Below are positions 15,179 through 36,329 of a DNA stretch of 42,774 nt, one piece after another. The DNA is from a virus, in the IMG/VR virus record IMGVR_UViG_3300009100_000020, positions 1 to 42,774 of that record. One strand, written 5' to 3'. Below the pieces are notes generated by a model. That model was not told where the DNA came from. It saw nothing but the letters and a program-made list of their open reading frames with translations, and did no database searches. Made by a program: the position numbers and the translations under genes. The first letter of the stretch is position 1, and each line of letters begins with the position of its first letter.

Positions 15179-16063
15179 TTACCCTTCCTTGCAATACTTA
15201 TCTTTTTTCACAAGGCATGGGATCGTCCACCAATTGCCGTCCGCGTCGTTAAAAATGCGGTGGTCACGAAACCGGATGTGCGTGTGTTCTTCGGTGACTT
15301 GCGTGGATTTTTTCTTGTCTTGCTCGTAATGCGTCGAGCTGTCGCTGTTACCCTTTTGCGTGGCGTAGCTTTTGCCGTGCTGCGAATAGGTGGCCGTGCC
15401 GTTCTGTTCAATCGCAACCTCGGATTTCTTGTTGTCGTCCTTGGCCGACTTTTGCCCGTATTCCTTTTTTTTCTTCTGTTGCTTCTGCGCCCGCTGCGGG
15501 CCGGGCTTCTGCTGGCTGTCATCATCCGGCTTGGGCACCAGCGCAATGCGCGTCAGCTTGTCCTCGCGCGTCGAAAGATAGGTGCCATCCTTCGACAGCA
15601 AGAATTGCTGACGGTCCTTCTGCAACCGATGCTGCGCAACGTCGCCTTCCTCCAGCTCGACCAGGCGATGGCGCCGGTCGCCGACCGCAATCATGACCGG
15701 ATGCGAGCGCGAACCGTTCATATACAGCACGATGGCTTCGGCAGCGTCGCCCTTCGGTTGCTCACCTTCCTCCCCTGGCGTACCACCTTCACCGCCAGGC
15801 CCGCCGCCGCCATTGCCACCCTGCTGGCCGCTTTGCTGCTTGCCTTTCTTCTGGTCTTCGTCTTCCTCATCCTGCTTGGCCGGAACGCTGGTGCTGCCAT
15901 AGTTCTCGGCGTATTCCACATCGGTCGCCGTCTCGCTCGCCATCACGTCGATGGCTTTGGCCTCACTCCACAGCGTCTTCGAATTCAGCTCGCGCAAAGT
16001 CGCGCGCGAAGCGCCGGTCTGCGCCCGCCGCGAAGCATCACGAGTCGATGTCCGCATTACCAT
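15179..16063 (-). CDS. baseplate assembly protein V / Mu gp45 family (spike)
   Basis: A 294-residue protein. The core EAIVLYMNGSRSHPVMIAVG followed by DRRHRLVELEEGDVA is the OB-fold signature of the Mu gp45/baseplate V family, the membrane-piercing spike. Two insertions set it apart: an acidic and Gly-rich loop at about 65-105 (KQDEEDEDQKKGKQQSGQQ, GGNGGGGPGGEGG) before the core, and a Lys/Gln-rich stretch at about 185-225. The C-terminus has EEHTHIRFRDHR, an HxH-like tip segment as in phage spikes that bind iron, followed by WTIPCLVKKDKYCKEG. Two starts are close (ATG 16063 and two codons on). It lies 14 bases after the gp44-like gene. Confidence 0.82.
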   Translation of the reverse strand: MVMRTSTRDASRRAQTGASRATLRELNSKTLWSEAKAIDVMASETATDVEYAENYGSTSVPAKQDEEDEDQKKGKQQSGQQGGNGGGGPGGEGGTPGEEGEQPKGDAAEAIVLYMNGSRSHPVMIAVGDRRHRLVELEEGDVAQHRLQKDRQQFLLSKDGTYLSTREDKLTRIALVPKPDDDSQQKPGPQRAQKQQKKKKEYGQKSAKDDNKKSEVAIEQNGTATYSQHGKSYATQKGNSDSSTHYEQDKKKSTQVTEEHTHIRFRDHRIFNDADGNWWTIPCLVKKDKYCKEG

Positions 16064-16077
16064 GTTATTGAGATTCC

Positions 16078-17217
16078 CTATTCGCCTAATGATGGGGGTC
16101 GATCACCGGAGGGCGCACTGGTACTGCCGTCACTTTGGGTCAGGTCGGGCCTGCCCTCGCTATCTTTGCCGCCCTCGCCGTCTTCACCGCCGGGCCGTTT
16201 CAGCTCGAGCGTGGTGCGCGTGCCCGACTTGTTGTCTTGCGTAAATGTCGCGCTGACCAGATCCAGCGTCTCATCGACAATCAACATCGGCGACTTGACG
16301 TGCACCTTCTCGCCGGGTTGCCACAACCCGCCGGATGATTTCAACCAGCCTTGCACCACGATGGTGACTTGCAACTGTTCCTGCCCGCGCACCTGGCTTT
16401 CGAACTTGCTGCGCGACTCGGCATCCTGCTGGTCACCAGGATGCTCGGCTAATTGTCGATTGGGCGCATGCACGCCTTTGCCGCCGGTGTTGACATTGGC
16501 TTTCGAGCTGGCGTTAGCCCCATGGGCAACCTTGGCGCCCCATCCGCGCAGATCGTGAGCGCCCTCTTGACTGATCGCGCTGTTGGGTCCGCCGCCTTGC
16601 TTGACGGTCATCACTTCGTTGCCCTCGAGGATGTTGACACCCTCGATCAGCGACTCGCCGCCGCCAGTCCATTGTATGCGAGCCGTCAGGTTACCTTCCT
16701 TGTCAGTGCCCATGGTGATGCCGCGTTGACGCGCCAGCATCTCGAGGAAGTCATATTTGCTCATGCCCGGCGGGATCGACGCGCGCGGGAATGGCTTGCC
16801 TGGCAGTCCAGTCTTCGGCACCACGTTGATGCCGGTTGGCTTGACCACTTCGTCGGCAATTTGCTTCCACGACTTATTCTTGAACTCGCCGGTCTTAGTC
16901 ATGGCCGCGCCATCGGCCAGCGCCTTGGTATAGCTGACGCCGATGATCTCGATGCCGTGTTGCTCGCCGGTATAGGCCACCTGGCGCGTCTCGACGTAGC
17001 CGGTGATGGCCAACACCCCGCCGAGCGTGATGCTGCAATGATCGCCCGGCCGAATGCGCAGCGCCGCGAAATCCTTGGCCAGCGGCATGCCTTCTGTCAC
17101 CGTCAACTTAAATGAATTGTTGGATTCGCCCTCGACCAGCTTGACCAGCACAGACTCCCAATCCCGGTAATTCATACCGTTGACCGTGATCTGTGCGACC
17201 TCTTGCGGCTTCGGCAC
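16078..17217 (-). CDS. baseplate hub protein, Mu gp44 (gpP) / gpD family
   Basis: A 379-residue protein with the family's order of segments: MNYRDWESVLVKLVEGESNN-type beginning, FKLTVTEGMPLAKDF, LRIRPGDHCSITLGG and ITGYVETRQVAYTGEQHG, then a LysM-like or hub domain with SYTKALADGAAM and SWKQIADEVVKPTGI. The last 80 residues are Gly/Glu/Asp/Pro-rich (RPGGEDGEGGKDSEGRPD) and look disordered, which is longer than usual. It forms the central hub on which the gp45 spike sits. It is followed by gp45 at 14 bases, in the Mu order. Confidence 0.85.
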   Translation of the reverse strand: MPKPQEVAQITVNGMNYRDWESVLVKLVEGESNNSFKLTVTEGMPLAKDFAALRIRPGDHCSITLGGVLAITGYVETRQVAYTGEQHGIEIIGVSYTKALADGAAMTKTGEFKNKSWKQIADEVVKPTGINVVPKTGLPGKPFPRASIPPGMSKYDFLEMLARQRGITMGTDKEGNLTARIQWTGGGESLIEGVNILEGNEVMTVKQGGGPNSAISQEGAHDLRGWGAKVAHGANASSKANVNTGGKGVHAPNRQLAEHPGDQQDAESRSKFESQVRGQEQLQVTIVVQGWLKSSGGLWQPGEKVHVKSPMLIVDETLDLVSATFTQDNKSGTRTTLELKRPGGEDGEGGKDSEGRPDLTQSDGSTSAPSGDRPPSLGE

Positions 17218-17228
17218 CGGCGCAACTC

Positions 17229-17900
17229 CTACGCGCTCAATGCCCTGACTCGGTTTTGAAAGAACGCGGGATGCACGATTTTATTTTCAGCGGCTAGTTC
17301 TTCCGCGCGCGAGCCCTCGCTATAGATGAATTGGCTCAACGCCAGGCCGGGCATCGGAATGAGCTGATATTCAAGCATGCGCGGCAGCGGCCGCGCGGTG
17401 TCGGCCAGGTAGCGGGTGATTGACCCAGCCAGCCCGATCAGCGCAGCGTAGCTTGGATTGTCTTGCTGACCGGCCGCCAGCTCGATCGCGATATCGAACC
17501 AATTCTTCATCCGCCTAAGCATGGACTCGACATCTTCGCGGCTATCAAATTCGGTCTTCGCCAGAATGCGCGCGTCCTGCGCCAGCGCAAACAAGATGCT
17601 GTTCTGCACCACCGCCACCGCTGCCAGGTAGCTCGGTTGCTCGCTGGTCAATTGCTTGAGTACGTTGTCCATCCACTTGACCGAAATGCCGGCATCGGTG
17701 GCCAGGCGATAGCAGACCAGCAATCGGCGCCCGAACGTGCCATCGCGCACGTATCTATTGATATGCGCGCGCAAGTCACCGACGGCATAGCGCAGTTGCG
17801 ATGCCGCGCGGCCCTTGGCTTCGGTGAAGGCCAAGAGCTGGTCGGTCGAGCGCACAATGATGCCCTCGATTTCGCTGAAAACTTTCTTGTTGAACTTCAT
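17229..17900 (-). CDS. C-terminal half of a split gpN (Mu gp43)-type protein
   Basis: A 223-residue, mainly helical protein. Its end (TARPLPRMLEYQLIPMPG, LALSQFIYSEGSRAEELA, NKIVHPAFF) matches the C-terminal part of Mu gpN/gp43-like baseplate proteins, where a similar ARPLPR...RNRIRHPxF pattern is usual. It starts at ATG 17900, overlapping the stop of the DNA-circulation N-domain gene by four bases (ATGA). In Mu these two parts are one polypeptide of about 490 residues; here 182 and 223 residues are encoded separately. Both frames are intact, so the split looks established rather than a recent lesion. Confidence 0.65.
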   Translation of the reverse strand: MKFNKKVFSEIEGIIVRSTDQLLAFTEAKGRAASQLRYAVGDLRAHINRYVRDGTFGRRLLVCYRLATDAGISVKWMDNVLKQLTSEQPSYLAAVAVVQNSILFALAQDARILAKTEFDSREDVESMLRRMKNWFDIAIELAAGQQDNPSYAALIGLAGSITRYLADTARPLPRMLEYQLIPMPGLALSQFIYSEGSRAEELAAENKIVHPAFFQNRVRALSA

Positions 17901-18445
17901 GCGCTACCTATGCCGCCCTGACCGATGGGCTTGCCGCCGGCAAGAACGCCGCTGTTGATGGAGCTGACGCCAGTGCTTTCGGCGGTGCTGGCCGAATTGA
18001 GCATCTGACTGCTGGCGTCGGCGAAGCCGGTCATTGCCGGCCGACCAGCTTCGACAAACTGCATGTCGAATTCGACGTAGCCGCCTTGCTGGCGCTTGTC
18101 GCCATAGGAGTAGCGCTCGCACATCACCAGCATGGTGCCGAGCGTCGGATGCACCAGGATGCCGGCGTCGTCGGCCTCGAGCGCACCAATCAGCGCAGCG
18201 ATTTGCGTGAGCAGATTGCCGCCGATACCCTTGTCGCGCAGGATCAAGTAACCGGTAAATTGCCAGCGCACCGCTTCGCGGCCCATGTCCTCCGAGTAGG
18301 GATCATTACGTTTGGGATACTGATGCACGACGGTACGGCGGCCGCTCGCGCGACTGCTAACCTCGACGTGAAAGATGGCGCCGCGAAACGAAGCCGGGAT
18401 AAGATTGTCCCGCCAGACATTCCTAATATCGCGGATAGAAGCCAT
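17897..18445 (-). CDS. DNA-circulation N-terminal family protein (N half of gpN)
   Basis: A 182-residue protein matching the DNA circulation/gpN N-terminal domain: NVWRDNLIPASFRGAIFHVE, then RRTVVHQYPKRNDPYSEDMG and AVRWQFTGYLI. In Mu-type phages this domain begins gp43 (gpN), a baseplate or tail-tip component despite its historic name. After about residue 125 the sequence goes to a Gly/Ser/Ala-rich tail (SSQMLNSASTAESTGVSS) and stops, while the rest of the family is supplied by the overlapping downstream gene. It begins three bases after the tape-measure stop. Confidence 0.78.
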   Translation of the reverse strand: MASIRDIRNVWRDNLIPASFRGAIFHVEVSSRASGRRTVVHQYPKRNDPYSEDMGREAVRWQFTGYLILRDKGIGGNLLTQIAALIGALEADDAGILVHPTLGTMLVMCERYSYGDKRQQGGYVEFDMQFVEAGRPAMTGFADASSQMLNSASTAESTGVSSINSGVLAGGKPIGQGGIGSA

Positions 18446-18448
18446 GGT

Positions 18449-21400
18449 TTATGCCGGTGATTGAATTTTCCCACCGCCGGTGGCGTCGGATTCTAGATCG
18501 CGATTGATGGTCGTATTGACCCCATCGCTCGGCCCCATTTTTGCGCGCACACCGCGCGGGCCTCGCAGATTGAGCGTGAGCGAAAGCGACATACGGTCCC
18601 GGCGCCGCCTCGGCAGCATGAAGCCAGGCCCGCCCGTCTCCGTCTCCACCTCTGGCTGACTTGGTTTCTGCTTTTTCAAGTATTCGTCGAAATCTTGTTG
18701 TGCTTGGATCTGCGCTTTTTTCTCGGCGCTGCCACCGGCGCGCCGTTCTAATGTCCGTTGCAGGATTGCGGCCAGCTCCGGTTTGTCTCTGTAATAGCGC
18801 GCCAGACCGCGTTGATAGGCTGCAATTTCGTCGCGTGTCCCGCCGCTGTATAGACTCAAGCCTTGGCCGATAATTCCCGCCGCACCAGTCAGGCCGCCAT
18901 GAATTCGTGCGCCGCCCATATATCCGACGCCGGTGCCACCACCACCACGCGCCACCATTTCCTCGAGGAAACGCAAGTAGCGCGGATCCCGGCGCCCAAT
19001 TAATTTTCCCCGCTCATCCAACAAATCGAAATCAGCGGCCAGACCACCGCCTGTTACCGGGTCAAGATTGTGTCGGCGCGATCCTTTATGCCGATGACCT
19101 TGCCCGCCAGATTCGATGTTGACCGTTGTAACGCCAGCCGCAATAGCCGCCTCATCTAAGACAGCCTCGAGACGGGGATCAATTTTGTTGTAGCGATACT
19201 TGCTATAATCGCCGAGCTGACTCTGCTTAACGCGAGTCACCTCATCGGCACCAGCCTTGTTGGGCTGCGATACCGCTGGCTGATTTTGCGAATCCGCCGG
19301 AGGGTTTTGCGATTGCGGGGGAGGCGCCTGGCTTCCATCACTCCTGATTCGTAGCGCCGCGTTGCGCGCTTCCTTCATGTCGTCATCGGACAGCGGGTTA
19401 CCATATTGATAGCCCGTCTCGAGCCGCGACATATAATGCAAAAACCGCAACCCGGCGGGTGACAACAGAAATTCGCGCGTCATCATGGTGTTTGGGGGGA
19501 CGCCAGCCGCTCTTGCAGCTTCGATACCGTATCCCCGTCGTTTGCCCGATGGGTCAACCCACGTTTGAATAACCTGCTCGATGGTGGCGCCGCCCCTCCT
19601 GCCGCCATAGAGTTCGCTTTCGAGCATCTTGCGGATCGCCGCAGCCGCGCCCGCCTTCATGTTCGGGAATAATGCACCAACATCGTATTGCGATGTCCGC
19701 TCACCCGGAATGCCGCCTTGCTGTGTGGCCCATTTATCGTGCCACATATTGAACGGATTATTTTTGCGCTGGCCGACCGTGCGCGACGTATCGGCACGTT
19801 CTGCTGGGGTAGGAATGCGTCCGCCCTTGATGCGGAATTCCTCATCCGTCGTTGTCGGTGTGCTCGGTGAGCGCGGCGCGTTCGTCGTGGTGCTGGTGCT
19901 GGTAGAACGCTGACGCGCCCCACCGCCACCGCCTCGAGGCGCCCGACCGCCGCCACCGCCGCCACCGCCGCCACCTCGAGGGGCACGGCCGCCGCCGCCA
20001 CCGCCGCCGCCACCGCGGAAGCTCGAGATCCGCCCCGCCAGGCCCGCCATCGGTCCCGCGCCCGATGCGTCGGTGTTCAACGCCAGCGAATTGACCACGT
20101 CAGCCAGCCGCGTGACGTTGGCCGTGACTTCCTTCACGGTCTGCCGCAGCTCGGCGGTGTCGCCGGGTTTCAGATAGCCATAGTTGGATTGCGGCGGCGG
20201 TTGCCATCCGCCAGCAACCCGGTAGGGCGCGGCGGTTTCAGGATCGAATAACTCGCTGCGCTTGCCGGGAACAACGACTTCCGGCAGTTGGATGATGCCG
20301 CCCGGCCCGGTCCCGCGCGGCACCGGCGACGTGAGTGGCCCCATGGGCGGCAACCCGCCACCGCCTGCACCTGGCGGCCGTGGCGTCGGCGCTGGCACCG
20401 ATGGCACTGACGTCGTCGGCCCTGTCGGCGCTGTCGTCGGCGCTGCCGTCGGCGCACCTGGTGGCCGTGGCGCCGGTGTCGGCACGGTGCCGCCTGCGCC
20501 TGCGCCTGCGCCCTCACCCTTGCCCATGGCGTTGGCAAGCCCTGCCAGCCCGCCCGCGGCAGCAACCGCGGTCAAGCCAGCCGCGACCGCGGCCAGTCCG
20601 CCCCCGAGCCCGCCAACCCCCAGCGCAACACCAAGCCCGATGAAGATCGTTGGCCAGCCGCCCATCTTGTTGACAATGGGATCCAGCGTTTCAATGAACT
20701 TGGTCGCCGCATTGATGATGGCAATGATTTTGTCGCCGACCGCATTCCAGTTGATATTGATTGAGCCCAACCAGGCGCCGAAGTCTTTGGCAATTTTCCC
20801 GCCCGGCCCCTGCAAGAATTGGTCAAACGCTTTGATCATGGCAGTTGCCGCCGGCATCAGCGCAACCGCGAGTTCCTTTTTGACGTTGTCGTAGCTGATA
20901 TTGAGCTTGAGCAATTCCAGGTTATAGCGCCGCATCTCGGCGGCTGACATTTGATAGATTTCGCCGAGATCGCTTTCCTTGATTTTCAGCGCATCTTTCC
21001 AGGCCGTCGATAAGCCGACGAAGTTCGCCAGGAACGATTGCCCGCGGCGATTCTGGACGTTGCTCATGCCGCCAAGGAAGGCTTCGATGCCAGCTTGTGT
21101 GCTGACTTGCGCCGCCTGCCTGACATGCGCGAGAAATTCGGGACCTTGTCTGCTCTTATAAATCTCGGCGAATTGCGCGGCCTTCGGCCCCTTCACCACC
21201 AGGTCGTCGATGACGCGCGCCAGGTTGGCAATCTGCCCCTGCGACTCTTGGGCGGTGAGGCCCAACGCCTGGCCACGCGCCGCCAGCGTTTCGAATTGCT
21301 TGGCGGTGAGCCCGACAGCGGCCGCCGTGTAATGCACCTGTTGCGTGTTGCGCGCGAGATCGCCGAACGATTGCGTCAGCTTGGCAACACCAGCAACCAG

Positions 21401-21628
21401 ACCGCCGCCGAGAAACGCGCCGAGCCCGGTCAAGCCCAGCAGCGAACTAAACTCGCGCCGCAGCGCGCCGACGGCCCGGCCAAGGCTCGCAAAACTTTGC
21501 TCGAGCGGCCGGAACGTGTTGCGCCCAAGCTCCTGGCGCAAGCGTCGTTGGGTCTGTTGCAGCGAACGCGACAGCTCATCGCGAATGATGACTTCAACGA
21601 CCGGGATGCGGCGCGAGCTGATGGCCAT
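18449..21628 (-). CDS. tape-measure protein 2 with lysozyme-like and M15-like domains
   Basis: A 1059-residue tape-measure-type protein. The N-terminal 290 residues (EVIIRDELSRSLQQTQRRLR, VHYTAAAVGLTAKQFETLA, NVQNRRGQSFL) are homologous to the same part of the gene just upstream. Residues about 320-365 are hydrophobic Gly/Ala-rich. Residues 370-450 are Pro/Ala-rich and 539-571 are runs of Gly with RAPRG, both flexible linkers. Residues about 620-740 (RKNNPFNMWHDKW, FLLSPAGLRFLHYMSR) resemble phage structural lysozyme or glucosaminidase-like domains. Residues about 835-915 contain GQGHRHKGSRRH, LAADFDL and ARIHGG, which fit a zinc peptidase of the M15/hedgehog type. The stop lies 3 bases before the DNA-circulation gene. 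It begins in a TAATG overlap with the paralogue. Confidence 0.78.
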   Translation of the reverse strand: MAISSRRIPVVEVIIRDELSRSLQQTQRRLRQELGRNTFRPLEQSFASLGRAVGALRREFSSLLGLTGLGAFLGGGLVAGVAKLTQSFGDLARNTQQVHYTAAAVGLTAKQFETLAARGQALGLTAQESQGQIANLARVIDDLVVKGPKAAQFAEIYKSRQGPEFLAHVRQAAQVSTQAGIEAFLGGMSNVQNRRGQSFLANFVGLSTAWKDALKIKESDLGEIYQMSAAEMRRYNLELLKLNISYDNVKKELAVALMPAATAMIKAFDQFLQGPGGKIAKDFGAWLGSININWNAVGDKIIAIINAATKFIETLDPIVNKMGGWPTIFIGLGVALGVGGLGGGLAAVAAGLTAVAAAGGLAGLANAMGKGEGAGAGAGGTVPTPAPRPPGAPTAAPTTAPTGPTTSVPSVPAPTPRPPGAGGGGLPPMGPLTSPVPRGTGPGGIIQLPEVVVPGKRSELFDPETAAPYRVAGGWQPPPQSNYGYLKPGDTAELRQTVKEVTANVTRLADVVNSLALNTDASGAGPMAGLAGRISSFRGGGGGGGGGRAPRGGGGGGGGGGRAPRGGGGGARQRSTSTSTTTNAPRSPSTPTTTDEEFRIKGGRIPTPAERADTSRTVGQRKNNPFNMWHDKWATQQGGIPGERTSQYDVGALFPNMKAGAAAAIRKMLESELYGGRRGGATIEQVIQTWVDPSGKRRGYGIEAARAAGVPPNTMMTREFLLSPAGLRFLHYMSRLETGYQYGNPLSDDDMKEARNAALRIRSDGSQAPPPQSQNPPADSQNQPAVSQPNKAGADEVTRVKQSQLGDYSKYRYNKIDPRLEAVLDEAAIAAGVTTVNIESGGQGHRHKGSRRHNLDPVTGGGLAADFDLLDERGKLIGRRDPRYLRFLEEMVARGGGGTGVGYMGGARIHGGLTGAAGIIGQGLSLYSGGTRDEIAAYQRGLARYYRDKPELAAILQRTLERRAGGSAEKKAQIQAQQDFDEYLKKQKPSQPEVETETGGPGFMLPRRRRDRMSLSLTLNLRGPRGVRAKMGPSDGVNTTINRDLESDATGGGKIQSPA

Positions 21629-23823
21629 TATTGAAAGCTCAAGCGATTATCGGGAACGTGGTGAGCATTCTGCATCTGCACCGCGCCGTCCATTGGCTGC
21701 GGCTTGAACAGGGCGCTGGGATTGCGGGCACCGCTAGCGAGGCCACCGACGTCGATGTCCACCGTGGCACTGCCGCTTAGGGCGCCGCTCTCTTGAGCGA
21801 GTAGTCGTGTGATCGAGCTGACGCCGCCGCCGCCAGGCTCGGCGCCCTGTAATCCACCAGGATCAAATCCGCGTTCGGTGAGTTGCGAGGTGAATTTAGA
21901 AACCAGGCTAGGCCAGAGTCTATTCGTTCCGCCCGGATCATTCGGATATGGCCTGCCGGTTCTCGGATCCGTTGATGGCGAATATTGTTCCGCCAAGCCT
22001 TCAAATGTGCCGCCGCCTCTGGTTATATTTTTTGCAACGACCGCCGCGGTTTTCTCGATCCCTGCCCCGATGGTTGGGAAGTTCATGAATTTGGTATTGC
22101 CGCGCCCCCCTCCCATCAGCCCGCCCGGATTGAGATAGGCCATGGTCGCGCGGCTCATTCCAAAAGGACCGCCCTGCGGCGCTTTCGATTCCAACGCCAT
22201 GATGCCTGCAAGCAACGATGGCGAAACATCTTGTTGAGCTGCGGCAGCAACGACGGCATCATACTGACCCGCCATTGGCCCCTGCCTAAACATTGTGTCG
22301 TAAGCCGCTCGGCTAAGATCGCCGCCGAGCTTGTCACCGCCATCGAGCTGGTATCCGCTCGCGCCGAAGCCGCCTTCCGGGCCGCCGATAGCTGTTTGCC
22401 CAAGATAATCGGCCAGATGGCCGGTCCCTATCGCCAACTGCTCAAGCTCGCGATTGAGCGCATCGCGCTCGCGTTCGTCTGCTGCCTGCGCCGCCCGCCG
22501 CTCTTGCTCATTCTGCGGCTTGCCCTCACCGCTCTGTGGTTTCGGCTGCGGCAGCGGCACTTCCTCTTTCTTCGGCCACAACTGCTTATAGATCCAATCC
22601 CAAACCCCCTGCTGTTTGAGATATTCTGGGATCGTGGTCGGCTTGCCTTCCTCGACATGTTTTTTGGTAGCTTCATCAATTTCTTTTTTGAGATCTTCCG
22701 GCGTCTTGCCAAGATGCTTTTTTATGTCCTCCCATGCCAGAATGAACGGCGTCAACGGCAACAACAATTTCATGGCCGTCTTAATGCCGTTGGCAACACC
22801 TAACAGTGACAGCGCAAACTTGCCTAGCGCCAGCCCCGCGATGACCTTTGGCCAGCTCAAGTTCATCGCCTGAATAACAGCGTCGGCTTGTTGGAATGCC
22901 CCCGTCAGCGTGTCGAGCGTCTTCTCGAGTCCGCCTTTGGTGATCCAGTCTGAGATGGCGTCGGATACTTGCTTCGCGATGTCGCCGATCTGCTTGGCGA
23001 ATTTCTTGCCGCTTTCGGTGCGCAGATAATCATCGAGCGCCTTCATGACTTTCGTCACGGCAGGCGTCAGCTCGGAACCAAGTATCAGGCCGATGTTGCG
23101 CGATGAGCGCTCATATTGCATGTTGGCAATTGCCAACGCCTTCATTTGCTCGGTGCTCAATTGCACGCGCTTGCCGAGCAACGGCAAGATCTCGGCGACA
23201 TCCTTGGCCGAGAACGGCAACCCCGCCTGCTTGAAGAATTCCGCCTGGCCGCGGCGGTCCTTGATCTTGTTCCCGACGCTGATCAGAAACTCGAGTCCGG
23301 CTTCCTCGCCTTGATTTTTGATGACGGCGCGCAAGCGGCGGGCGATGTCCGGCCCGGCAATGCTTTTCTCGAGGAAGGCGCCGAACGAAGATTTTTCGCC
23401 CTTGACGTAAAAGTCATCGAGCGTCGACAGCGCTTGCTTGATGGCGGACGTGGCCGCTTCCGGCGCCTCACCGAGCCCGGTCAGGGCATCGCGATAGTTC
23501 TCAATGAACTTGGTCGAAACGCCGAGCTGTTGCGCGGTGTAGTGCAGTTGGATCTGCTGCCGCGCCATGTCCTGCATGGCACGGACAGCGGTGGCAATGC
23601 CTGCCACCACACCGCCGCCGACCAGGCTGCCGAGCGTGAGCCGCGACAGCGTCGACAGCTCGCGATGCACCACGCGCACCGCGGGCGCGAGCCGTTGAAA
23701 GCCCGCATGCGCGGCATCAACTCGCGTGTTAGCGAGCTGGCGAAGCTGCGCGTTGATGGGGGCGAGCTGCCGCGACAGCTCATCCCGCAACACCAGTCTT
23801 ATTTCAATGGTCTGGTCAGCCAC
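21628..23823 (-). CDS. tape-measure protein 1 with lytic-transglycosylase-like domain
   Basis: A 731-residue protein directly after the tail assembly chaperone, the standard place of the tape measure. The N-terminal part (RLVLRDELSRQLAPINAQLR, LHYTAQQLGVSTKFIENYR, KIKDRRGQAEFFKQAG) aligns throughout with the first 290 residues of the downstream gene. A hydrophobic segment at about 330-375 (VIAGLALGKFALSLLGVA, LLLPLTPFILAW) resembles tape-measure membrane segments. Residues about 520-650 (DVSPSLLAGIMALESKA, GGPFGMSRATMAYLNPGG) are lytic-transglycosylase-like with Glu545 as candidate catalytic acid. A GLQGAEPGGGG linker precedes the end. In Mu one gene (gp42) does this job, so two paralogues in tandem are unusual. 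Confidence 0.78.
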   Translation of the reverse strand: MADQTIEIRLVLRDELSRQLAPINAQLRQLANTRVDAAHAGFQRLAPAVRVVHRELSTLSRLTLGSLVGGGVVAGIATAVRAMQDMARQQIQLHYTAQQLGVSTKFIENYRDALTGLGEAPEAATSAIKQALSTLDDFYVKGEKSSFGAFLEKSIAGPDIARRLRAVIKNQGEEAGLEFLISVGNKIKDRRGQAEFFKQAGLPFSAKDVAEILPLLGKRVQLSTEQMKALAIANMQYERSSRNIGLILGSELTPAVTKVMKALDDYLRTESGKKFAKQIGDIAKQVSDAISDWITKGGLEKTLDTLTGAFQQADAVIQAMNLSWPKVIAGLALGKFALSLLGVANGIKTAMKLLLPLTPFILAWEDIKKHLGKTPEDLKKEIDEATKKHVEEGKPTTIPEYLKQQGVWDWIYKQLWPKKEEVPLPQPKPQSGEGKPQNEQERRAAQAADERERDALNRELEQLAIGTGHLADYLGQTAIGGPEGGFGASGYQLDGGDKLGGDLSRAAYDTMFRQGPMAGQYDAVVAAAAQQDVSPSLLAGIMALESKAPQGGPFGMSRATMAYLNPGGLMGGGRGNTKFMNFPTIGAGIEKTAAVVAKNITRGGGTFEGLAEQYSPSTDPRTGRPYPNDPGGTNRLWPSLVSKFTSQLTERGFDPGGLQGAEPGGGGVSSITRLLAQESGALSGSATVDIDVGGLASGARNPSALFKPQPMDGAVQMQNAHHVPDNRLSFQ

Positions 23824-23826
23824 GGC

Positions 23827-24428
23827 TCAACGCTCGCTTGGACTCTCAGCCTCTTGCGCCGCGCGGATGCGCTCGGTCAGCTTCAACGTCCACATCTTGT
23901 GACGAGTGATCTCGCCAATCGTCTGTTCAAGGAAGACGCGCGGATCGACGTGGTAGAAGTGCGCCAACTCGTAACAACCGATGATGATTTCATCGGGTGA
24001 AATCATGCGCCCGGCGGCGTAAAAAAACGGAACAGCTTCCAAGCCACCGCGTTCCAATCTTTCGCCGACAGCATGCGCACGCTCGACGGCGGGACATTCG
24101 CCAGTAGCGACATCATCGCCGCCATCTTTTTCTCATTGAATGAAATCGTCGGCTGCGCCCCCGAGAAATCCAGATACACCGGATTGCCCGCGCGCTCGAT
24201 GTCGCCGCCGGTCGGCTCGCGCCAGCGCAGTGTAGTGATTTCCTCGCCGTGTGCCTGGATCGGCTTGATGAGCACATGGAACAGCTCGATCTCGGGCTCA
24301 TCCGACGGTGGCGGCGCCTGGTCCGCATTCGGGTCGTAAGACAAATCCGGCTGGTCGTCGGGCGCCGCCTGCGGCTGCGGCGGCACGTCGGGCTTGAGTG
24401 CATCGTGACGCTTGGTGATGTCGTCCAT
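23827..24428 (-). CDS. tail assembly chaperone, long -1 frameshift product (E+E' type)
   Basis: The zero frame (24428-24003) and the downstream frame (to 23827) overlap at a T-run. Shifting back one base on the T TTT TTT heptamer at 24027-24021 joins AWKLFRFF directly to YAAGRMISPDEIIIG, giving a product of about 200 residues. The downstream part is helical and charged (YHVDPRVFLEQTIGEITRH, LTERIRAAQEAESPSER). This is the conserved arrangement of long-tailed phages, in which short and long chaperone forms (gpG/gpGT in lambda, E/E+E' in P2) bind the tape measure before tube polymerisation. An in-frame ATG at 24006, overlapping the zero-frame stop as ATGA, means that E' could also be translated on its own. 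Confidence 0.75.
24003..24428 (-). CDS. tail assembly chaperone, short form (Mu gp41 / TAC family)
   Basis: A 141-residue protein made without frameshifting. After a 45-residue Pro/Asp-rich N-terminus (DVPPQPQAAPDDQPD) comes the conserved part: FHVLIKPIQAHGEEITTL, RWREPTGGDIERAG and MSLLANVPPSSVRMLSAKDW, characteristic of the Mu gp41/P2 E type of tail assembly proteins. It sits between the tube and tape-measure genes. It would act in the cytoplasm during tail assembly and be absent from the virion. Confidence 0.8.
   Translation of the reverse strand: MDDITKRHDALKPDVPPQPQAAPDDQPDLSYDPNADQAPPPSDEPEIELFHVLIKPIQAHGEEITTLRWREPTGGDIERAGNPVYLDFSGAQPTISFNEKKMAAMMSLLANVPPSSVRMLSAKDWNAVAWKLFRFFTPPGA
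24021..24027 (-). promoter_or_regulatory. -1 programmed frameshift slippery heptamer
   Basis: On the coding strand the codons CGT TTT TTT ACG give the heptamer T TTT TTT in the correct zero-frame phase for tandem -1 slippage. The -1 frame runs on open as YAAGRMISPDE. The ten bases after it (ACGCCGCCGG) are GC-rich. P2 E+E' uses a related T TTT TTG site. Confidence 0.78.
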
Positions 24429-24511: not shown

Positions 24512-24877
24512 TCAGCCGCCGATTTCCTCGCAGGTCGTGCCCTCGAAGCGAACGCGGATCTGGCCTTCTCGGGTGTTGTTCTCGAAGGCCGATTTGCAAG
24601 CGGCTTCCTTGAGCACGTAGGTCTTGCCGTTCATCAGCTCGGCAGTCACCGTGACGTCAACCATGGCGTCGAGTACTTCCAAACTGACCTCTTGCGTGGT
24701 CGAAACGTCGCCCTCGATCCAGGGTACGCGCGGCAGCTCTTGATAGCCGTGCACGTAGTCCTGGCCCGCGAGCATGGTGCGTTCGACCGGCGACGATGAG
24801 ACGGTGAAGTTGCCACGCAACGGCAGTTGGTTGCCGTCGACCTTGAAATACGCCGTTCCGGCGATGGCTTGCGCCAT
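24512..24877 (-). CDS. tail tube protein (Mu gpM / FII-like)
   Basis: A 121-residue protein of the phage tail-tube family: AGTAYFKVDGNQLPLRGNF at the start, then SPVERTMLAGQDYVHGY, the conserved PxVPWIEGDV, and LMNGKTYVLKEAAC near the end. Its length equals Mu gpM (about 118 residues). It polymerises inside the sheath into the tube that crosses the cell envelope. It lies between sheath and chaperone genes, as expected, with its own leader containing a hairpin at 24926-24949. Confidence 0.9.
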   Translation of the reverse strand: MAQAIAGTAYFKVDGNQLPLRGNFTVSSSPVERTMLAGQDYVHGYQELPRVPWIEGDVSTTQEVSLEVLDAMVDVTVTAELMNGKTYVLKEAACKSAFENNTREGQIRVRFEGTTCEEIGG

Positions 24878-24990: not shown

Positions 24991-26817
24991 TTAGCGGAGC
25001 ACTTCCTGATCTTGACCGCGCGAATACTGCAATCTGAACTGTACGAGCACGGCATATATACGTAACTGATTCACAAGATCTGGCGGCCATAGCACATTAA
25101 GCCTATTGGGGTTATTGGGGTCCCTTTCGACTATAAGGTGCTGCTTAAAGCTTTGGACGTCCTCCACTAAACCATTGAACTCATCTATCCTATATTGACT
25201 GACAAGCTCGGCCTTGACGATCTTTGGCGTGACGATCTTCTGCCCGACACCGAAGCGCGTGCCATCGTTCGCGAGCTTGTGGCGCGGGAACTTGGTGGTG
25301 ATGACATGGCGCTGATTGCGGATCAGCCTGGCGAGCGTGGCCATGGTGGTGACCAGCTCATAGGCATCGTCGCTCTGACTGTAGAGGTTGAGCTGATAAG
25401 TCGTGGTGTCGCGCATGATCATTGGCTGACCATCCGAGCCACGTTTCTGCGTCGACAGCCCGACACCCGACAGGGTGTTGAGTTCGGGCAGGATGAAAGA
25501 CTCTTCGGGATGCGCCGACAGCACCTTGTTGAGCGAAAGCGTCTGCAACGGCCTGGCCGGATCGTTGGTCAGGGCGCGCGCAGCTTTCGCGGCGTAGGCC
25601 GCCGCCCATTCCCAAGTCGGCGTCGGCGACAATTCTTCGACCGCCATCACTGCGAGCGGGCCGAAGTTCGGTGATACACCGCCCGCGGCCTGATCACCCC
25701 ACACCACCAGGTCGGAGAAGTTGTCACGCCGGGCGCAGAACAGATGGCCATAGAGCTGGCGCATCCATCCCCAGCGGCCGGTGTCGGTAAATCCCCATTC
25801 CTGGCAAAAATCGAATAGCGTGTTGCTTTCGGTGTTGGGCAACGCGACGTATTCGTATTCGTGCTCGCCGAGATTGGCGATGGCGTCGGCAAAGTCAGGT
25901 TCGCCGCCGCCGACCACGCCGCCGGTACCAGCGCCGAGATGCGGCGGCACGGCCATGGTCAGACCGGGAGGCAATTCCTGCCCACCCACCTTGCCGTAAT
26001 AATTGAGCTGCAAGGTGATGTCGTTGCCGTTCTTGCCCGGTGTCTTGCACGTGATCGTCACGTCAGGACCAGCCGCCACTGCCGTGACTTGCAACGACGG
26101 TTCGTCATTGATGGCAAAGGCCAGCTCGGTCGCCATGGTGGCTGGCGTGTCGGTTGTGCCGACGGCAATGCCGACATGATGACCGCCGATATAGAGATGC
26201 ACCATCCCGGCTTCGACCGGCGCCGTCTGAAACGTGATCTTGGCGGCGGCTTGCGTCGAGCCCGAAAGCGGCGCCACCGGTAGCGCCCAGATCTCGTGCG
26301 CGAAATTGTTGGCAAAGGCAGCGGCGAACATCGACGCGATTTCCGAGCCCTGACCATATTGGCGGTCGGCCTGCGCTTGCGTGCCGATGGGCTTGGGAAT
26401 GTTCGGCGTGCCAATCCCGGCGCCTTGCGAGACGACGTCCGGCACCCACGTCAGATTGAACGTCGCGCCGATGCCTGCGCCGTTGGTGGTAACTTGCATC
26501 ACCGGATTCACCGGCGGCGTCGCTTCGGCGGAAATGCTCCCGGCATCGGTGATGGTGACGGTCGCCACGGCGCCAGTCGTGATGGTGGCCACGGTCAGCA
26601 CAACGCCATTGTCCAGGTTGATCGTATTGCCGACCGCATAGCCGCTGCCACCGGCGGCGACGGTCGCGGTGGAAACCTTTTGCGTTGAGATGATCATGGT
26701 TCCGACGATCAGAATGGGTTGCCGGATGATCGGCAAGCCCGCCATCGACGGGTCGACTTCGGCCCAGAACAAAGGCATGCGCCATTGGGCGGGAATGGCA
26801 TCAAAGCTGATAGGCAT
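24991..26817 (-). CDS. tail sheath protein (Mu gpL family) with an inserted GGSGY domain
   Basis: A 608-residue contractile sheath protein. The beginning MPISFDAIPAQWRMPLFWAE and the segments GQGSEIASMFAAAFANN, HEIWALPVAPLSGSTQAA and the C-terminal NLYSQSDDAYELVTTMATL, IRNQRHVITTKFPRHKLA match Mu gpL-like sheaths. Between residues about 45 and 130 lies an extra beta-rich module with GGSGYAVGNTINLDNG, ATVTITDAGSIS and GAGIGATFNL; this module type is found as add-on domains in other phage structural proteins. Mu gpL has about 495 residues, so the insertion accounts for most of the extra length. It would lie on the outer face if it follows the first strand of the sheath fold, but that is inferred. 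Confidence 0.9.
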   Translation of the reverse strand: MPISFDAIPAQWRMPLFWAEVDPSMAGLPIIRQPILIVGTMIISTQKVSTATVAAGGSGYAVGNTINLDNGVVLTVATITTGAVATVTITDAGSISAEATPPVNPVMQVTTNGAGIGATFNLTWVPDVVSQGAGIGTPNIPKPIGTQAQADRQYGQGSEIASMFAAAFANNFAHEIWALPVAPLSGSTQAAAKITFQTAPVEAGMVHLYIGGHHVGIAVGTTDTPATMATELAFAINDEPSLQVTAVAAGPDVTITCKTPGKNGNDITLQLNYYGKVGGQELPPGLTMAVPPHLGAGTGGVVGGGEPDFADAIANLGEHEYEYVALPNTESNTLFDFCQEWGFTDTGRWGWMRQLYGHLFCARRDNFSDLVVWGDQAAGGVSPNFGPLAVMAVEELSPTPTWEWAAAYAAKAARALTNDPARPLQTLSLNKVLSAHPEESFILPELNTLSGVGLSTQKRGSDGQPMIMRDTTTYQLNLYSQSDDAYELVTTMATLARLIRNQRHVITTKFPRHKLANDGTRFGVGQKIVTPKIVKAELVSQYRIDEFNGLVEDVQSFKQHLIVERDPNNPNRLNVLWPPDLVNQLRIYAVLVQFRLQYSRGQDQEVLR

Positions 26818-29485: not shown

Positions 29486-29685
29486 GACTGCAACAACTCG
29501 ACCAGCTTGGCGTTGCGGCGGCGCTCGCGTGCCAGCAACAGCATCAGCGCATGGCGGGCGCGGGCAGGGTCGCGCTCGAGCGCCAGGCGCGCGGGCGGAC
29601 GGGCGGCTGCGGACAGCTCGGCCGCGCCGTGCTTAAGCTCGGCCACGCGTGCGCTGGCCAGCAGCGATTGCTTGAGCCGGTTCAT
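29482..29685 (-). CDS. small helical Ala/Arg-rich protein
   Basis: A 67-residue protein ([38 protein letters not shown]), predicted to be almost wholly alpha-helical. Both ends overlap neighbours by four bases (ATGA), which argues for translation. It lies between the collagen-like fibre gene and the connector, so it may be a scaffold or a chaperone-like helper for one of them. No family recognised. Confidence 0.5.
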
Positions 29686-30923
29686 TTGGTTTCCGTGTGG
29701 AATTGCTCGAACAGCTCGCGCAGCGGTAATGCCACTTCATCGCCGTCGGACATGACAGCAATTGCACGATAACTGGCGCGGTCGATTCGCCATTTGACGA
29801 TGCGGGCGCCGGGCGGGCCTTGCTCGCCCTTCACGCCGCGCTCGCCAGGGCGGCCAGGCTCACCATCGCGGCCAGGCTTGCCCGCGCGGCCGACGCCGCA
29901 GAGAAGTTGCCAGCCCTCACCAGGACAAGGGCCGGGCGCGTCCTTCAACGCAACGAAGCTCGAACCGTTGACCATGACTAAGTCGAGCCGGGCATATTCG
30001 GCTTCGGCCTGGTGCAGCCCGCGCGGGTTGATGGCAGCACCGTCGCGACCGCCGACCGCCAAGCAGATCCAATCGGCGCTATGGCCGGGCCTGGTCGCGG
30101 TATCCTTGAGCGCCTGGTAGCAGGCGCCATCGCAGGCGAAGACGTCGCCTTCATAGGCGACCGTATCCGGCCGCCACAGCTTGCCCTTCGGCAGCTTGCC
30201 GCGTGGACCTTCCGCGCCGCGCTCACCGGCGACCCCGCGCTCGCCTTGCGGTCCGGACGGTCCCGGTGGTCCGGGTGGGCCGTCAACGCCAGGCTGGCCG
30301 GGCGGCCCTTGCTCACCGATGGCCCCGCGTTCGCCCTGCGGACCGGGCGGGCCGTTAGCACCGGGCTGACCGGATGGGCCTTGCTCGCCTATCGGCCCCG
30401 TTGCCCCTGCCGCGCCGGGCGCACCGGGCTCGCCGTCTTTGCCAGGCTGACCGGCTTCGCCAGGCTCGCCCTTTTCGCCGCGCTCGCCTTGATCGCCCTT
30501 ATCGCCGATAGCGCCAGGCGGCCCCGCGGCGCCTGCTGGCCCTTGCTCGCCTTGCAGTCCTTGCTCGCCGACATCGCCTTTCTCTCCCTTGCTGCCGGGC
30601 TCGCCATTGATGCCAGGCGGCCCTGGTAGGCCGGGCGGCCCGCGCTCGCCGATTTCGCCAGGTTCGCCGGTGTCGCCTTTCTCACCGCGCTCGCCTGGCG
30701 CGCCGTCGCGCACGCGCGCCAGACAGTCATCCACGACACGCCGCACTTCCTCGCGTAGCTCGGCGTTTTGCGCGCGCAGCTCGGCAATGGTGGCGCGCGC
30801 CTGCGCCTCGATTGTCTCGCGCTCGCGTGCCCATTGGCGGCGCTGCTCGGCAATGACCTGGCCGAGTGCGGCGCGAAGTTCGTCAAGCTCGCCGTCGAGC
30901 TGCAAAGCGTAAGCGTGATTCAT
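29682..30923 (-). CDS. collagen-like fibre with coiled coil and carbohydrate-binding-like modules, in the head module
   Basis: A 413-residue protein. Residues 1-75 form a long charged coiled coil ([37 protein letters not shown]). Residues about 76-245 are uninterrupted Gly-X-Y triplets ([19 protein letters not shown]). Two short modules follow: [19 protein letters not shown]...CYQAL and [19 protein letters not shown], each like the W/Y-rich CBM5/12-type chitin-binding folds often fused to phage fibres. A second short collagen segment ([16 protein letters not shown]) then precedes a C-terminal beta domain. It is placed between the portal and the connectors, not in the tail-fibre cluster. A trimeric head or neck fibre is therefore likely. 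No known receptor. Confidence 0.75.
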
Positions 30924-33908: not shown

Positions 33909-33984
33909 GTTGCTTACTAAGTTGCTTACCAAGAGCGACGCTGTGTCCTGCGCTTACTAGCCAGGACACAAGGTCGCTTACCAG
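33909..33984. repeat. four GTAAGC-containing repeats after the capsid gene
   Basis: On the minus strand, copies of TRGTAAGCR occur four times in about 75 bases: one contains the capsid stop codon (TGGTAAGCGACC, 33984-33973), one lies in the loop of a hairpin (TAGTAAGCGCAG), and two form a 12-base tandem pair (TGGTAAGCAAC and TAGTAAGCAAC, 33932-33909). The rest of this gap contains no gene. Confidence 0.6.
33942..33970 (-). terminator. hairpin after the capsid gene
   Basis: A perfect 9-base-pair inverted repeat (TGTGTCCTG with CAGGACACA) with an 11-base loop, starting 8 bases after the stop of the protease-capsid gene. No T-run follows, so it may be a processing or stability element rather than an intrinsic terminator. 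Confidence 0.45.
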
Positions 33985-36329
33985 TTGACGTTGTTGACCC
34001 ATGCGACGCAACCGCTGCGCCGCATTAACCAGTTGAGCGGCATGATCATTCGCAATGCGATGCTGTCAGTCTGAAACAGCGAACGCTGCGGTGACGCCAC
34101 GGTTCCGGGCGAGCCGGTGCCGACCAGCTCAAGTGGAGTCGTGTCCTCCATATGAAGCGTAGCAGAATCGCTAAGCTCGAAGCGCGGCCCGCCACCGCCG
34201 GCCGTAACGAAGTCCGCCGCGTCGACCAGGATGACGGTCCGGGTCGGGATCGTTGCCGAGTCGATGATCGGGATGTTGAGCAACGTGCCCTGACCGATTT
34301 CCGCCTTGAACGGGAAGATCCCGTTGGTGTTGGCCAGCGACGCCGACAGCATCTCGCCGGGATTCATCAGGAACACCGGGTTGCGGATGTTGCCCTTGGT
34401 GCTGGTGGTCAGCACGCCGACCAGCAGCTTGAGATCGCCGATGATCGCGGGCAGACCTGGCCCGGTCGTTGGCGTCTGCGCCGCCACACCGTTGAGCAAG
34501 CCCGCGGGCCGCGTGGTGGTCGCCGGGTTGGCGTCGATGAGCACCGAGTCGATGGACACCGACGTGTCGGTCTGGATGGCTTCGCGCAACACGCCTTCGA
34601 TGGCGGGTGTGCTGTGCTCGCTCATTTCGCGAGTCCACACGGTGATGACGGCGAGTTTTTTCGGCGTAAGATTCTGACTCGTGAACGCGCCGATGCGGAC
34701 CGGGATGGCGGCGCCTTCTCCGACGAAGGATCCGGCAATGGTCGGCGTCACCGAACGAGTCGGAATCACGATTTTCGCGGCACGTCCGAATTGCAACGTC
34801 AGGCCCCTGGCCGCAAACCGGGTATAGACGGCTTGCGGGATGAGCTGCGGCATCAGCTCGGCATAGGTTTGCTGTGCCAGTTCTTGCGCCCAACCCGGTA
34901 CTGTGGTCATGGCGGGCGCAGTGGCCGTGCGCAGGATAAGACCGCAAGCGACCCTGGTGACTTCGTCGTCGCCGTAGATCTTTTCGCACGCCTTGATCGG
35001 ATCAATTTGCCAGTCTTTCGCGAATATCGCGACCGTGCCCGCGCGCACCAGATATTCCAGCGGTGCCAGCTCTTTCTTGCGCTTGGGGATGACGTGCGGC
35101 GCACTGATATCGTGGTCGTTGCCATCTTCCGGGCGGCGCTGGTCGTGCAGCACCGTCAACGCCCGGCTCGAGCTGCCATTGCCGTTGCCGTCAGTCGACT
35201 TCGCCAGCAGCTTTTCCGATTGCAGCCAGGCATCGAGCCGCTTGCGCATCTTGGCGATGTCGGCATTGAGCGCGGTCGTCGTTTCGATTTCGTCATCTTG
35301 GACGTCATCGTTGTCCATCTTCGCCAGAAGCGCCGTCAGCGCGTCTTCCTTTGCCACCAGATCGGTTTGCAAAGCGGCGATCCGTTCTGAAAGCGTGCTC
35401 ATGATTTTTGAGCCCTTTCTATTGCGAGAAGTTGCGGCATGCTCGCCGGTGGCACCGTTGCGCCGGATGGTCCCGTTTCCTTTGCGTTGCTCCGCGAAAA
35501 CGAGTCCGAGCGTGTCGGTGGAAACTTTCAGAGACTTGGCCAACGCCAATGCATTGGCGTTGGCAGGTACCGCAACCAGCGAGCATTCGACCAGCTCTTG
35601 CTCGAGGAAGCGGAATGGCCCGAAGAATGGATCCGACTTTTCAGTCAGCGGTTCGCGCTTGGTGGCGCGGAAGCCGACCGACACCGCGCGCAGGATGTCA
35701 GCGTCAACCAGGCGGCGGATTTCGTCGATGCGCGGTGACGTGCCTTCCGGCGCCAGCTCGAGGCGGCCACGAAGCTGCACGCCGTTGACCTTGACGTCAT
35801 GCCAGCGACCTACAATGAAGGTCGGGTCGTGCGCAAAAAGTGCTACGGGGTTGCGCTTGAACGAATCTGTTTTCCAGCCATCGGCGGAAATGATGTCGCC
35901 CATCCGGTCTTCGGATTCATCCGATAAGACGAAGTGCCAGCCGGTGCCAGCCTTGCGCGCTTTTTCGGCATGCGTGGCGCGGTGCACGTGATCGGCGCCG
36001 CTACTGCGCTCCGACCACAGCATGGCGCAGGCTTCCTCATCGTCGATGGCATCGACGCAATCGCTGATGAATTCTTCGCGGTCGTCATAGTCTTCGGGAT
36101 CCGGTGCTTCGGCTTTTGTCGTCAGCAACCTTTTCCAGAGCGCGATGATGCGTTTGACTTCGGCGGCCGGTGGCGCCGCTAAGTTTTTGCTGTCGCGCCA
36201 GTAGCCCATGCAGATCGCAACAGCCTGTTCCTGCGTGCGATCTTCCGGCGCGTCGTCGCCGAATGTCTCGCTCATGCAGCGGGCCATGAAGTCCGACTGG
36301 CTTTCGCCAGGCTTGGGTTTCATCGGCAT
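33978..36329 (-). CDS. prohead protease-major capsid protein fusion (HK97 type)
   Basis: A 783-residue protein. Residues about 130-275 are a HK97-type (S78) prohead protease: VALFAHDP with His167, RAVSVGF with Ser217, and ELVECSLVAVPANANALA with Glu248 are the family's key blocks. Residues about 310-385 are a coiled-coil delta/scaffold domain (MSTLSERIAALQTDLVAKED). Residues about 470-783 are the HK97-fold capsid (APAMTTVPGWAQELAQQTY, GEGAAIPVRIGAF, LIDANPATTTRPAGLL, SPQRSLFQTDSIALRMIM). A possible internal start exists at ATG 35402 (Met310), ten bases after AAGGG, which would yield capsid plus delta without protease. The N-terminal 110 residues carry a Cys/acidic extension with ESQSDFMARCMSETFGDDA, seen also in other phage capsid-assembly proteins. 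Start at 36329 is preceded by GGGAG. Confidence 0.88.
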   Translation of the reverse strand: MPMKPKPGESQSDFMARCMSETFGDDAPEDRTQEQAVAICMGYWRDSKNLAAPPAAEVKRIIALWKRLLTTKAEAPDPEDYDDREEFISDCVDAIDDEEACAMLWSERSSGADHVHRATHAEKARKAGTGWHFVLSDESEDRMGDIISADGWKTDSFKRNPVALFAHDPTFIVGRWHDVKVNGVQLRGRLELAPEGTSPRIDEIRRLVDADILRAVSVGFRATKREPLTEKSDPFFGPFRFLEQELVECSLVAVPANANALALAKSLKVSTDTLGLVFAEQRKGNGTIRRNGATGEHAATSRNRKGSKIMSTLSERIAALQTDLVAKEDALTALLAKMDNDDVQDDEIETTTALNADIAKMRKRLDAWLQSEKLLAKSTDGNGNGSSSRALTVLHDQRRPEDGNDHDISAPHVIPKRKKELAPLEYLVRAGTVAIFAKDWQIDPIKACEKIYGDDEVTRVACGLILRTATAPAMTTVPGWAQELAQQTYAELMPQLIPQAVYTRFAARGLTLQFGRAAKIVIPTRSVTPTIAGSFVGEGAAIPVRIGAFTSQNLTPKKLAVITVWTREMSEHSTPAIEGVLREAIQTDTSVSIDSVLIDANPATTTRPAGLLNGVAAQTPTTGPGLPAIIGDLKLLVGVLTTSTKGNIRNPVFLMNPGEMLSASLANTNGIFPFKAEIGQGTLLNIPIIDSATIPTRTVILVDAADFVTAGGGGPRFELSDSATLHMEDTTPLELVGTGSPGTVASPQRSLFQTDSIALRMIMPLNWLMRRSGCVAWVNNVNW

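Follow-up and report, generated by a model that had tools for sequence, protein, structure and literature searches.

Why would a phage with a contractile tail encode two tape-measure proteins side by side? The question is raised by a 42,774-nucleotide stretch of soil phage DNA (IMG/VR virus record IMGVR_UViG_3300009100_000020, positions 1 to 42,774; the whole stretch is referred to here as the window), in which two tape-measure genes lie in tandem on the minus strand: A (21628..23823, GTG start, 731 amino acids (aa)) and B (18449..21628, ATG start, 1059 aa). The stop codon of A and the start codon of B overlap by 1 nucleotide (nt) in a TAATG junction. Our analysis suggests that this phage, like many uncultured relatives, probably has a contractile tail in which the two sister proteins form one heteromeric rod.

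A sequence-only reading of the window had described the two open reading frames (ORFs) as paralogues that align over their first 290 residues. Both ORFs were found on the minus strand, as were all window features given below, and BLASTP aligned residues 8-347 of A with residues 11-345 of B (30% identity and 48% positives over 346 residues; E 1e-34). The homology thus runs from the start, as had been proposed, and extends further, to about 345 aa. The blocks named in that reading are present as well (RDELSR in both proteins, QLHYTA/QVHYTA and DRRGQ/NRRGQ). When the whole record was searched with A, B was the sole other match (E 5e-35), and the C-terminal halves of the two proteins are unlike each other. 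The N-terminal parts match PHROG tape-measure families (B, phrog_9570 at E 5e-8 and phrog_2276 at E 5e-7; A, phrog_2276 at E 8e-6), and A has orthologues in 11 relatives. The genes also sit where tape-measure genes are expected, with a frameshifting tail assembly chaperone upstream of A, B abutting A, and gpN-, gp44- and gp45-like genes downstream. From BLASTP, AlphaFold 2 (AF2) models and the sequences, we delimited the shared tape region as residues 1-345 of A (22789..23823) and 1-357 of B (20558..21628). Each has two hydrophobic segments at matching positions of the complete tape (59-77 and 327-345 in A; 63-81 and 328-346 in B). Predicted helices cover most of A 9-415 and B 18-357, at low confidence except for about residues 95-215 of A.

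The pair might have been a single oddity of one phage, but such pairs recur in a phage group whose members have one, two or three copies. With the sheath as the query, either by itself or as a profile, scans of viral contigs and bacterial genomes yielded 164 loci; 66 of these contained the full tube-to-hub interval and were used to count copies, some of them being near-identical. One tape gene was present in 33 of these, two in 32 and three in one (L032). All but one of the two-copy loci (31/32) hold genuine N-terminal paralogue pairs with 24-57% identity, in which the best alignment begins near the N-terminus and stops between residues ~285 and ~555, and the C-termini differ. The remaining locus, L167, probably represents one gene with a frameshift; in the other pairs the genes are spaced by -1 to +10 nt. 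With 25 two-copy loci being distinct, an assembly artefact or split gene was ruled out; one of the pairs lies in a prophage on a 907-kb contig of Bradyrhizobium sp. SRL28 (L086). A search of the genus Bradyrhizobium with L086_1 returned only its own genome, among 195.

The C-terminal ends of the paired proteins weigh most in our interpretation. In single-copy relatives the end follows the consensus '..GKIxVDVNAPxGTxVxAxGGGLFKxVxxNRQTQMxPA..', that is, one anchor with two motifs, the NAPxGTxV hairpin and RQTQMxPA. Hand-written motif patterns detected both motifs in 14 of 19 single-copy tails, and a scoring matrix built from these 14 complemented the patterns. On NAPxGTxV, the partners scored 3-32 bits apart in 25/25 distinct pairs, one chain having the hairpin and the other being without it, and on RQTQMxPA the difference ran in the opposite direction in 20 of the 25. 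We refer to chains with the hairpin as alpha and to their partners as beta. In the window, conservation and motif scoring place a beta-type anchor at residues 684-731 of A (21631..21774; GSATVDIDVGG...LFKPQPMDGAVQMQN) and an alpha-type anchor at residues 1012-1059 of B (18452..18595; LTLNLRGPRGVRAK), with bit scores for NAPxGTxV/RQTQMxPA of -14.5/+1.0 in A and +5.3/-6.7 in B. The same division can be followed between relatives. The single-copy tail of L049/L081 corresponds to the hairpin of L037_1 and the tail of L037_2 joined in one chain, beside relatives that divide them. Similarly, the single-copy L158 carries a CHAP-like cassette, a second cassette and both motifs on one chain, while in its two-copy sister L150 one chain combines the CHAP-like cassette with the hairpin and its partner combines the second cassette with the QM tail. 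The beta gene comes first in the window clade, L028, L030, L032, L034 and L150, and the alpha gene elsewhere. The three tandem paralogues of L032 (L032:12666-20102; 999, 740 and 737 aa) end in beta, alpha and alpha type, respectively. What appears to be new here, judging from the motif scores, is the division between paired chains of end motifs that single-copy relatives combine in one anchor.

A shared rod part, different enzymes and partly complementary ends together suggest a mixed two-protein bundle as the ruler. In such a tail, the homologous N-terminal tapes of A and B would lie side by side as equally long parts of a mixed helical bundle, which would set the length of the tube. Their C-terminal ends would reach the baseplate, where two kinds of contact would be shared out between the chains: alpha (B) would have retained the hairpin motif P-x-G-[TV]-x-V and beta (A) the LF...QM tail, while the one chain of single-copy relatives, with both motifs, probably serves both kinds of site. 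Upon infection the bundle would be expelled, A delivering a glucosaminidase and B its two cassettes, at least one of them probably a peptidase. We infer from sequence the co-assembly of A and B in the same tail, their possible 3+3 arrangement, what the ends bind, and the activity of the enzymes. The ends also bear on a different use of the pair, in which each tail would be built on a homomer of either A or B, so that virions of two kinds would differ in their wall enzymes or lengths. Two complete proteins, each with a tape, an end and its own cassettes, would fit such a scheme; asymmetric ends, however, are unexpected if each protein does the whole job. The overlap of the two genes within an operon that has one chaperone gene, the homogenisation of tapes in some lineages and the matched tape lengths of partners also speak against alternative tails, which we regard as improbable.

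The length matching was pronounced: over the first ~260-340 residues, partners differ in tape length by a mean of 5.3 residues compared to 31 in shuffled pairs, and their lengths co-vary (r 0.97), a similarity that common ancestry confounds. The two clearly different tail lengths offered as one option by the sequence-only reading are accordingly disfavoured. Another of its options was that one copy had turned into a tip or baseplate protein that is no longer in the tube. The difference between the C-terminal ends of A and B would agree with this, as would the location of lysozyme at the hub in T4-like phages. Yet neither copy has a markedly shortened tape across the two-copy lineages, and the operon has separate hub genes of the gpN, gp44 and gp45 types. 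Both copies also keep the whole tape, the hydrophobic segments and conserved ends that partly resemble those of single-copy proteins, and both are under purifying selection in relatives (ratio of nonsynonymous to synonymous substitution rates (dN/dS) 0.02-0.24). We therefore give a tip-only role little credence and favour the third option, the heteromeric tape measure.

The cassettes between tape and anchor differ between A and B. As Pfam gave no enzyme domain on the whole A and B proteins, the cassettes were excised and searched separately. The cassette of A (residues 505-640; 21904..22311) had been described as transglycosylase-like, but by fold and profile it is a GH73-type glucosaminidase, with predicted activity. 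Residues ~490-620 match the folds of 4pia (S. aureus AtlE; Z 11.2) and 8yxk (glucosaminidase of the Clostridioides endolysin Ecd09610; Z 10.6), although sequence identity to A is just 11-20%. The profile of the cassette family matches 8yxk at E 2e-7, and Pfam Glucosaminidase is above the cut-off in the relative L163 (E 3e-7) and below it in A (0.06). The glucosaminidase of A also matches positions 838-969 of the tail-lysozyme profile phrog_1259; positions 985-1133 of the same profile are matched by the N-terminus of an endolysin-like gene at 1469-2962. For B, the sequence-only reading had named lysozyme-like and M15-like blocks. Residues 600-765 (19334..19831) are conserved in L021 and L034 and have a weak PHROG endolysin match (phrog_873, E 2e-4), with no Pfam match and no relevant PDB match in profile searches. 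Residues 810-945 (18794..19201) carry an M15-like motif (SGGQ..GSRRH..AADFDL..H) conserved in L025, L032 and L135, and Pfam and PDB profile searches gave no M15 match and nothing convincing; the M15-like label is supported by motif and conservation only.

Among relatives, the cassettes are modular and freely exchanged. GH73-type glucosaminidases occur in several A orthologues, while those of L013, L022, L031 and L033 have other domains; among B orthologues, several have an M23 peptidase (PF01551, E 6e-15 in L021; the B family profile matches PDB M23 structures) and others are M15-like. This exchange would suit cargo carriers, that is, one protein measuring length and the other travelling inside the tube to deliver an enzyme, its tape being kept just for loading. 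The packing of several cassettes into one chain in single-copy relatives such as L158 points the same way. Equal tape length, hydrophobic segments, conserved ends and similar selection in both copies argue against a mere carrier, however, and we consider this explanation unlikely, though less so than the tip protein or the alternative tails. Very long single tape measures with several cassettes were also seen in L168 (from 12638, 1607 aa) and L119 (from 13215, 1349 aa). As in the tape measures phiCbK gp95 (CHAP), TM4 and P1 Sit (SLT), the wall hydrolase cassettes lie near the C-terminus; here, in contrast, the enzymes are divided over two co-encoded chains. The C-terminal cassette of the single-copy relative L088 is ~36% identical to phiCbK-like tape measures.

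How did the pairs arise? In the tape tree, the window clade consists of an A and a B clade that mirror each other in their internal branching order, which points to one old duplication that was stably inherited. Outside this clade, partners are often placed as closest relatives. A single ancient duplication for all pairs, modelled on the tape region by holding chains of one end type together, was rejected by the approximately unbiased (AU) test (p-AU 7e-64); pairs thus arose repeatedly, or the tapes of partners were homogenised. The sheath tree requires at least 8 changes between the single- and multiple-copy class, and repeated duplication accounts for most of the pattern. Homogenisation is nevertheless visible in some lineages. 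The C-termini of L154 and L157 group by gene position (in the L086/L154/L157 comparison, the first copies reach 45-90% in most windows), whereas the middle parts of the tape in L134, L154 and L086 are closer between partners than between orthologues. For residues 301-350, the values are 55% between partners and 22-27% between orthologues in L154, where grouping by position was rejected (p-AU 4e-5), and 74% versus 21-30% in L134. Hence, the middle tape follows the phage while the C-termini of L154/L157 follow position, indicating that the tape was homogenised between partners. In L134 (13061-18800), the two tape genes are ~74% identical over first-copy residues ~281-360, which likely reflects recent gene conversion. 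As a universal rule, gene conversion is unsupported.

Known tape structures provide a possible reason for two kinds of chain. Six-fold tape bundles have been described for A-1(L) and Pam3; in A-1(L) and Pa193, three C-termini are ordered. In the myophage A-1(L), only three ordered C-termini of the six-helix bundle rest on the trimeric spike, and the authors ascribe the missing other C-termini to proteolysis (PMC10966104). Six helices with three ordered ends imply that even a homomeric tape may have chain ends of two classes. We tentatively propose, as a possibility short of an even chance, that the tape of the paired phages is a 3+3 heterohexamer. The paralogues would then resolve the six-to-three mismatch between bundle and trimeric spike by dividing the two C-terminal contacts, a division that would have arisen several times through tandem duplication and complementary loss, aided in some lineages by gene conversion of the tape.

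We prefer the heteromer to the cargo, tip and alternative-tail models mainly because of the chain ends, and several observations weigh against it. The complementarity on RQTQMxPA is absent or tied in 5 of the 25 pairs (L044, L125, L148, L154 and L157), and counted by lineage it stands at about 10 for, 4 against and 1 tie. The motifs were picked after inspection of the tails, and the scoring matrix was trained solely on single-copy tails that have both of them. The length matching is not taken as independent proof because of the shared ancestry, and the total tape length of B is uncertain because a 107-residue Pro/Ala/Gly-rich linker (residues 374-480; 20189..20509) follows the shared region. 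The AF2 models of A and B are poor (mean predicted local distance difference test (pLDDT) scores of 50 and 37), that of B being too poor to serve as a query in fold searches. Six chains cannot be assumed either, since the contractile bacteriocin diffocin has a full-length homotrimeric tape (PMC11329794). Finally, homogenisation of the tape is essentially absent in the window clade itself (it is confined to a single 40-residue window of one comparison).

In A-1(L) and Pam3 (six-helix) as well as diffocin, Pa193, 80alpha and T5 (trimeric or with three ordered C-termini), the tape lies in the tube with its C-termini at the hub or spike (PMC10966104, PMC11042391, PMC11329794). Each of these tapes comes from one gene, in contrast to the two paralogues with divided end motifs described here. 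Using tblastn, the tapes of A, B, L055 and L080 had no relative among 50,697 phage records, and for the L028 tape the only matches, to annotated tape measures, were at chance level. In GenBank phages, the tape regions of A and B were unmatched at E 1e-5, that of B even at E 1; only the GH73 cassette of A has a match, to Bradyrhizobium phage BDU-MI-1. No report of duplicated tape measures was found in open-licence PMC full text, which is no proof of absence. The structures of A-1(L), Pam3, Pa193 and diffocin give no agreed answer on whether a tape is trimeric or hexameric, or on how six chains would engage a spike of threefold symmetry. If the heteromeric reading is true, the two chain classes would be on separate genes and could each be tagged, deleted or lengthened separately, and phages would be able to gain wall enzymes through additional tape chains. 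The family, whose members have one, two or three copies, allows this transition to be followed.

The tape genes are embedded in a Mu-like contractile tail operon, which shares the minus strand with genes for the terminase, the portal and a capsid protein with a protease domain. The order of transcription is sheath, tube, chaperone, A, B, a gpN-like hub protein in two ORFs, gp44-like, gp45-like, fibre and baseplate wedge genes. Sheath, tube, DNA_circ_N, gp44/gpP-like, gp45-like and baseplate wedge genes are all present and in the correct order, as in the Mu-like and SfV-like tails (Mu gpL, gpM, gp42, gpN, gp44 and gp45). Pfam and PHROG searches identified the tail sheath (24991..26817), the tail tube (24512..24877) and the gp44/gpP-like baseplate hub (16078..17217), and a Pfam search the gp45-like baseplate/spike protein (15179..16063). 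The best GenBank matches of the sheath are Paraburkholderia phage IPK and SfV-like and Mu phages (35-43%). Mu-like prophage relatives outside the group (L098-L115) have a single tape gene of 480-660 aa, whereas the window has two, each with wall enzyme cassettes, and a split gpN. A 76-kb contig in the collection carries A, B and the sheath with 100% identity to those of the window.

The tail assembly chaperone (24003..24428; Pfam Phage_TAC_7) contains a T7 slippery run at 24021-24027, from which a -1 frame extension of 65-66 aa reaches 23827 (23827-24428 in all) and stops 4 nt before A. This frameshift resembles that of lambda G/GT, and a single chaperone pair here serves both tape measures. 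The Mu gpN-like hub protein is encoded by two ORFs (17229..18445) recognised as DNA_circ_N and phrog_184 halves; they match positions 5-156 and 205-402 of phrog_184, and the split is conserved in one- and two-copy relatives. Outside the tail genes, the N-terminal part of the 783-aa major head protein (33978-36329) matches a head maturation protease, making it a fusion, and a collagen-like tail fibre gene (29682-30923) sits between the portal and head-tail adaptor genes.

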